Assembly: GCF_014191985.1 (NCBI RefSeq)
Contig: NZ_JACHXI010000002.1
Location: 248,001-312,000 of the forward strand
Direction: 5' to 3'
Origin: Azomonas macrocytogenes
Lineage (GTDB): Bacteria; Pseudomonadota; Gammaproteobacteria; Pseudomonadales; Pseudomonadaceae
DNA: 64,000 nucleotides
The notes below the pieces were generated by a model. It did not search any database, was not told the origin of the DNA, and worked only from the letters and a program-made list of their open reading frames with translations. Both the position numbers and the translations under genes were made by a program. How positions within the stretch are numbered: position 1 is the stretch's first letter; each line of letters opens with the position of its first letter. This document shows positions 17,461-17,841 of this stretch, one piece after another.

Positions 17461-17489
17461 AGCCCACCCACAATTGCTGTGTACGCAAT

Positions 17490-17498
17490 TGTGGATAA
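17490..17498 (-). promoter_or_regulatory. perfect DnaA box 1
   Basis: TGTGGATAA, the reverse complement of TTATCCACA, matches the strongest E. coli DnaA box exactly. It overlaps the right arm of the 17468-17494 inverted repeat and is followed by CCCTTGGAAG, which resembles the sequence after box 2. Confidence 0.55.
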
Positions 17499-17699
17499 CC
17501 CTTGGAAGAATGCTGCGAATGCCGATGGTACGGGCCTTTGGCATAATCGTACATTTTTTAACCAATTTTGATCAAAAAAACATAAACCACGAATAAACCA
17601 TTGATTACAAGTGTTTTTTAATTCAACCACCGTAATCAAAACGCAAAAAAGATCCTGTTCGTCAATCGTTTATTTATACCCAGCAACCCTGGAAAAAAC

Positions 17700-17708
17700 T
17701 GTGGATAA
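17700..17708 (-). promoter_or_regulatory. perfect DnaA box 2
   Basis: A second TGTGGATAA in the same orientation, 210 bp from box 1 and 134 bp before the add start. It is followed by CCTTGGGAG, so the similarity with box 1 extends beyond the nine-base core. Confidence 0.55.
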
Positions 17709-17841
17709 CCTTGGGAGTAATTTTGCCAGGCCAGACGGCATCTGCATTTGCGCGATTCGTACAGAGCTTGAACAGCCCCATGGACTTACCGGGCTCGTCA
17801 TGAGACAAATCGGCACAACGAATCCGCACGAGAATATTTTC

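Follow-up and report, generated by a model that had tools for sequence, protein, structure and literature searches.

A tandem pair of putative DARS-type DnaA-box modules between yigZ and add in Azomonas macrocytogenes, and similar modules in the Pseudomonadaceae

The closest described counterparts of the element analysed here are the two DnaA-reactivating sequences (DARS) of Escherichia coli, of which DARS1 is the one that we take to lie between bioD and uvrB. DARS2 is placed near mutH by primer names and sequence in the available part of PMC4585315. The available text of PMC5742627 describes a core of three DnaA boxes, equally spaced at both DARS and with box I opposed, and reports that the essential boxes of datA all face one direction; boxes I and II are described as driving head-to-head ADP release in the available part of PMC8682772. 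The portions of these sources at hand cover E. coli-proximal beta- or gamma-proteobacteria (PMC5742627), a comparison of seven E. coli-proximal species (PMC8682772) and conservation of the DARS2 core in E. coli-related gamma-proteobacteria (PMC4245941, where “Pseudomonas” is absent from the main text as available). A literature search by title and start of abstract, with subscription papers including the 2009 DARS paper outside its scope, found no description of DARS in Pseudomonas, and the literature on DnaA ChIP-seq with Pseudomonas, covered in the same way, held no such description either. To our knowledge, little is known about how initiation is timed in Pseudomonas outside oriC.

The window, by which we mean the whole 64-kb stretch of Azomonas macrocytogenes DNA that was analysed, contains two perfect DnaA boxes (TTATCCACA), both of them minus-strand (17490-17498 and 17700-17708), and a pattern scan of the 64 kb revealed no further copy. 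Both boxes had been reported in a first-pass annotation, whose positions, shared orientation, 210 bp spacing, CCTTGG flanks and TTTTGATCAAAA palindrome were all borne out. That annotation was right to call the pair unusual, although its chance figure of 0.5 becomes 0.18 by dinucleotide shuffle; two copies of TTATCCACA anywhere in the window arose in 2/100 such shuffles. Across the A. macrocytogenes genome perfect boxes number 35, compared with 14 occurrences of a backwards control pattern. Overlooked in the first pass were the triplets around both perfect boxes, each of which comes last in a set arrangement of an inverted box I, 5 nt, box II, 3 nt and box III. The resulting tandem element spans 17464-17737, with both modules in the same orientation at the 210 bp spacing, and its features and neighbours are the following.

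16870-17460, plus strand: yigZ, Pfam UPF0029, start codon chosen by eye.
17464-17472, plus strand: left box I, CCACCCACA, 6/9 to TTATCCACA, opposed to boxes II and III.
17478-17486, minus strand: left box II, TGTGTACGC (as on the plus strand), 5/9.
17490-17498, minus strand: left box III, perfect TTATCCACA, from pattern scan and geometry.
17549-17563, plus strand: Fis-consensus-like palindrome, GTACATTTTTTAACC, fitting GnnYAnnnnnTRnnC exactly 50 nt past left box III.
17594-17606, minus strand: IHF-like site, AATCAATGGTTTA, 0 mismatches to WATCAANNNNTTR, weakly supported across relatives.
17674-17682, plus strand: right box I, TTATACCCA, 7/9.
17688-17696, minus strand: right box II, CCTGGAAAA (as on the plus strand), 6/9.
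17700-17708, minus strand: right box III, perfect TTATCCACA, from pattern scan and geometry.
17709-17737, plus strand: downstream flank of the right module, part of the model match 17672-17737.
17842-18792, plus strand: add, adenosine deaminase, the downstream neighbour outside the element, passing its NCBIfam cut-off.

Box starts are offset by 0/14/26 in the left and right modules alike. The two triplets reach geometry scores of 22 and 20 of 27, the runner-up in the window scoring 17, and when 200 strands were simulated with the dinucleotide composition of the window, a score of at least 20 occurred at 0 positions. A sequence-only model, R1, built from 56 Pseudomonad modules over 70 columns, matches the window at these two modules only (40.3 and 38.5 bits), both of which are among its training rows. 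The geometry was also recovered around 42 nonredundant perfect boxes from loci picked only for a pair of perfect boxes separated by 189-219 bp: for a box of the same orientation the best offset was -12, with +11 ranked second, and for an opposed box it was -26. Boxes of at least 5/9 were present at both -12 and -26 in 27/42 of these, compared with 0/27 other perfect boxes of the Azomonas genome, a control set comprising 27 of 31. These two-box-pattern loci, together with loci collected by Add similarity, constitute the tests that are free of triplet selection. Alignment A1 comprises loci mostly known to have a perfect box upstream of add, plus L020, and its averages use 15 of 16 rows, leaving L020 out. 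In these 15 Stutzerimonas-type rows, the columns of boxes I and II have, in either module, a mean major-base frequency of 0.82-0.88, against 0.64 in other columns, while box III columns reach 0.93 and 0.99; because the rows were picked for a perfect box, box III is conserved partly by construction, which is not the case for boxes I and II. In alignment A2, chosen by box score, the box columns are all conserved by construction.

On the 3' side of box III the module consensus displays CC at +22/+23, CGnGGCyTnC over +32 to +41 and, over approximately +49 to +65, TGnTCAttttttGAnCA. It derives from a nonredundant set of 140 modules obtained by length filter; the corresponding sets contain 120 modules for the DARS flank and inverted-repeat analyses and 179 near-distinct modules for Fis. 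The E. coli reference DNA comprised bioD-uvrB of MG1655 and, from a second E. coli strain, the stretch between rppH and mutH. The best geometry match is TTATCCACT-N5-TGTGGATAA-N3-TGTGTATTA (L137:2608) in DARS1 and TTATTCACC-N5-TGTGGATAG-N3-TGTGAAGAA (L138:1551) in DARS2, and both cores are identical in geometry to the window modules, with starts at 0/14/26 and box I inverted. Applied to 7 kb of E. coli DNA, R1 matched nothing up to E = 10 but the two DARS cores, at 18.6 bits for DARS1 and 13.5 bits for DARS2. The DARS1 core is adjoined by a regulatory flank of roughly 50 bp. In a flank test of 12 flank/locus comparisons, DARS1 shares the +32 to +41 motif of the modules in register: its flank at fixed register ranks 4 of 13,910 positions, and 0/20,000 shuffles score as high over the +9 to +46 part. 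The +46 to +68 part is not shared (rank 3482 of 14,010), and the DARS2 flanks are unmatched (ranks 1353 and 11,752). An earlier reading of the element as DARS2-like, based on the series core, Fis, IHF and second core, was revised since the flank test favoured DARS1.

Neither E. coli site is an exact counterpart. DARS1 is a single triplet with its perfect box at II and no Fis-consensus palindrome at +50, whereas the window holds a tandem pair with perfect boxes at III. DARS2 resembles the window in core geometry, in a second triplet of the same geometry and orientation 316 bp further (L138:1867) and in sites for Fis and IHF that lie between its triplets, but the triplets are 210 bp apart in the window and the order of sites differs, with IHF-like sites at +58/+74 followed by Fis at +110 in DARS2 and a Fis-like site at +50 followed by an IHF-like site at ~+95 in the window. 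The neighbouring genes are also different, being yigZ and add in the window, bioD and uvrB at DARS1, and rppH and mutH at DARS2. According to the available text of PMC4245941, E. coli did not need the second DARS2 triplet under the conditions used there. The E. coli cores are strong at box II, in contrast with the window modules, where box II fits at 5/9 and 6/9, box I at 6/9 and 7/9 and box III at 9/9. Because box II is weak here and is the strong box in E. coli, head-to-head pairing at boxes I and II could be poor. Strong boxes at I and II may be a defining DARS trait, one that is drawn from two E. coli cores and that the window modules lack. The weak box II, the strong box at III and the altered order of Fis and IHF sites are real departures from E. 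coli DARS, and the element is filed as DARS-type, as distinct from a proven DARS. Judged on sequence, we nonetheless hold it fairly likely that two DARS-type modules in tandem make up 17464-17737 and would regenerate ATP-DnaA.

The pattern GnnYAnnnnnTRnnC, given as the Fis consensus in the available part of PMC4245941, lies at +50 in 87/179 modules, while any other offset accounts for at most 6. The best Fis-like site is the one at +50 in 39/39 paired elements, which were selected by module score with the +50 site not used, and in 33/39 it departs from a stricter Fis consensus by at most 2 mismatches, compared with 19% of shuffles. The IHF-like site near +95, perfect in the window, is uneven in relatives, and 19/39 elements carry one with at most 1 mismatch, against 21% of shuffles. 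An inverted repeat centred +29 past box III has modest support (z 3.8) and is partially matched by the window's own modules (6/12 and 5/12 pairs); an RNA hairpin or terminator was considered on the basis of this repeat and set aside at that z score. The inverted repeat, weak as it is, and the +50 palindrome hint at binding by additional proteins, and the element might on this basis serve a protein other than DnaA, or represent a dispersed non-coding repeat whose motif merely resembles DnaA boxes. We regard both as improbable, since the boxes fit the E. coli DnaA consensus in DARS geometry and a DnaA consensus common to E. coli and P. putida is reported in the available part of PMC4285127. Nor is a dispersed repeat favoured by the searches, with no match to the element among 72,556 plasmid records and, in Rfam, no family whose cut-off was reached. 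The one Rfam match in 16700-18900, at 15.1 bits with a gathering threshold of 40, was rejected.

The element begins 3 nt past the yigZ stop codon. YigZ reaches 137 of the 168 bits of NCBIfam TIGR00257, below the cut-off, and is above that of Pfam UPF0029. The pair is located 133 nt upstream of the add start, and the R1 match ends 104 nt before add; the first-pass annotation listed DnaA control of add among the possible roles. A DnaA-responsive regulator of either neighbour, add or yigZ, would fit this placement in the intergenic gap, as it would the genome G039, where the pair follows yigZ after 0.76 kb and is closer to add, at ~0.16 kb. However, over the whole stretch upstream of add in 80 loci collected by Add similarity, modules occur in 31/34 loci with yigZ and 1/46 without it (L024), which argues that the element travels with yigZ and against control of add. 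In the 31 yigZ loci, at least one module lies within 600 nt after yigZ, and in the 25 yigZ loci with two found the second follows the first by 180-213 nt; L020, L023 and L026 have yigZ without a module. Perfect boxes were located at most 700 nt from add in 15/80 loci, and yigZ is just upstream in 14 of these 15. The pair directly follows yigZ in the single-contig genomes G207, G209 and G197, the yigZ-linked pairs of these and of G039 being 0.7-0.9 Mb from dnaA. In some Pseudomonas loci add is found as far as ~2.8 kb past the pair, and other genomes have some gene other than add following yigZ and the pair. Homologous modules adjoin unrelated genes, namely PA4642-like/mqo, a chromate transporter and a short-chain dehydrogenase, and no sigma-70-like promoter was found in 17300-18000. 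Regulation of the neighbours is therefore considered very unlikely. The same interval contains two minus-strand terminator-like sites, with 0.8 expected. In G039 the frames between yigZ and the pair (L192, ~1380-2138) resemble by eye a small toxin-antitoxin pair, RelE/HigB-like and helix-turn-helix.

The first-pass annotation also considered an origin-like relic, and perfect DnaA boxes around an AT-rich interior are indeed features expected of a relic or of a secondary origin capable of autonomous replication; the available part of PMC4403523 reports two autonomously replicating elements for P. aeruginosa. The interior is AT-rich in the window itself (GC 0.36), as described in the first pass, but this does not extend to relatives: GC is 0.44-0.63 in the 38 other elements compared, and AT-richness is thus not conserved. 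The oriC of Pseudomonads, between rpmH and dnaA, has perfect TTATCCACA boxes, two of which share orientation 230 bp apart in the Azomonas genome. Unlike the window pair, these are without a triplet, the best geometry score at that locus (L084) being 18 and outside the dnaA gap, and R1 has no match there. Within the 12.5 kb of this locus (G000:C5:28466-40886), which surrounds dnaA/oriC, there are eight perfect DnaA boxes, of which only two fall in the gap upstream of dnaA. An oriC adjoins dnaA and combines a DUE with an oligomerization array, an organization that the window element does not display; dnaA and the boxes upstream of it are on contig C5, separate from the window's contig. With triplets of DARS geometry in the window and none at oriC, we regard an origin or its relic as extremely unlikely. 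The sequence does support the broader proposal of the first pass, that of DnaA-type sites away from oriC.

R1 matches at E of at most 0.01 were found in all 35 Pseudomonadaceae genomes searched, a family label taken from named loci of the Add-similarity set, with 2-41 matches per genome; in other families of the order, 10 genomes have 1-5 modules, some near threshold. A strict triplet pattern (at most 2 mismatches) is present in 268/369 genomes of the class, with a control match in 12/369, which suggests a wide occurrence of DARS-type sites across the class. In most of the class matches listed, as in E. coli, box II is the perfect or near-perfect one. Conservation in close relatives, on which the first-pass annotation had staked the significance of the boxes, is mixed: the two-perfect-box pattern occurs in 0/3 other genomes of the genus, two of them 70-78% complete, while the site is kept in other genera of the family. 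The same-genus genome G001 has two weaker R1 matches. When the 383-bp region was compared with 28 relatives, it matched its own genome and, over short stretches, G011 and G015, at loci L002 and L003 with triplets. The two-box pattern count (155/248) is an upper bound for paired triplets; among 30 two-box loci (L107-L136), L107, L117, L125 and L129 have no triplet scoring at least 20 at the matched boxes, and the L114-type group has a triplet at the right-hand box only.

The Azomonas genome possesses a second tandem pair, 190 bp apart (G000:C22:15268-15492; L085 2769-2993), upstream of a PA4642-family gene, which passes its NCBIfam cut-off, and of a likely mqo, named by eye. Two other sites of this genome deserve mention. 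A single triplet near G000:C21 60594 (L103 ~995; 19.8 bits) resembles E. coli DARS1 in that box II is the perfect one, and at G000:C30:20008-20030 (L086 1509-1531), near a contig end, two perfect opposed boxes 5 nt apart, TTATCCACAaaattTGTGGATAA, form a box I/II pair in which both are perfect. Two-box elements that are similar over their first 80 nt are repeated 10 kb apart in G245 (C1:4847250 and 4857144) and 1.5 kb apart in G212 (C7:28068 and 29605), which suggests duplication. L128 contains eight same-orientation triplets in ~1.6 kb. In G039 clusters lie on both sides of dnaA, with 8 modules at -0.06 Mb (C1:5739722-5740886) and, at +0.44 Mb, a further 6 in a stretch of 5.4 kb (437477-442925); the cluster ~0.06 Mb from dnaA might be related to the second P. 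aeruginosa autonomously replicating element.

Placement was analysed in 12 single-contig genomes, picked by hand for match numbers fitting the list and mostly already matched by the two-box pattern. The count used 108 of 136 matches, leaving out those above E 3.2e-4, with genome lengths rounded. The origin-proximal half contains 48/57 loci and 29/30 multi-module loci, mostly at 10-30% of the arm; p-values for this bias overstate it because the 12 genomes are related. Copy number and placement make DnaA titration, or a datA-like function, the main rival: box arrays near the origin would soak up DnaA or promote ATP hydrolysis and so delay re-initiation, without reactivating ADP-DnaA. The strongest box being the perfect box III, the up to 41 modules per genome and the origin-proximal bias would all suit such a role, and many modules are about as near to oriC as datA presumably is. 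The available part of PMC12371093 reads an origin-proximal excess of boxes in E. coli as titration. Both datA and the window element consist of a cluster of DnaA boxes and an IHF site, IHF-like in the window, but datA is characterized by essential boxes that all face one way (PMC5742627, as available) and one IHF site, an organization that the window element, with its opposed box I, does not share. For simple titration the rigid 0/14/26 geometry, the DARS1-like flank and the fixed +50 palindrome would be superfluous. We thus rate titration as possible but rather unlikely; geometry, flank and the opposed box I lead us to prefer a DARS-type element over datA or oriC.

As a DARS-type element, the modules could be envisaged to operate as follows. 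DnaA would anchor at the perfect box III and fill box II and the opposed box I, where head-to-head AAA+ domains would loosen ADP. Apo-DnaA would then leave and reload ATP, providing more ATP-DnaA for initiation at oriC, while Fis and IHF would assist by bending the DNA and tandem copies would add dose. The genome encodes DnaA, and its Hda, Fis, IHF-alpha and IHF-beta are each above at least one curated NCBIfam cut-off. For the Pseudomonadaceae as a whole, we give about even chances to a multi-copy system of DnaA recharging, in which DARS-type cores with a perfect box III and a Fis-like site at +50 are arranged in tandem arrays flanking oriC.

The sites are short and make deletable targets, and tandem origin-proximal arrays would allow the titration and reactivation models to be tested against each other. 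If DARS-type sites are class-wide, DARS copy number and placement become evolving traits. If the multi-copy reading is true, several loci would share in DnaA reactivation, and perhaps in titration, with an output that scales with gene dosage near the origin, in contrast with the two single sites of E. coli.
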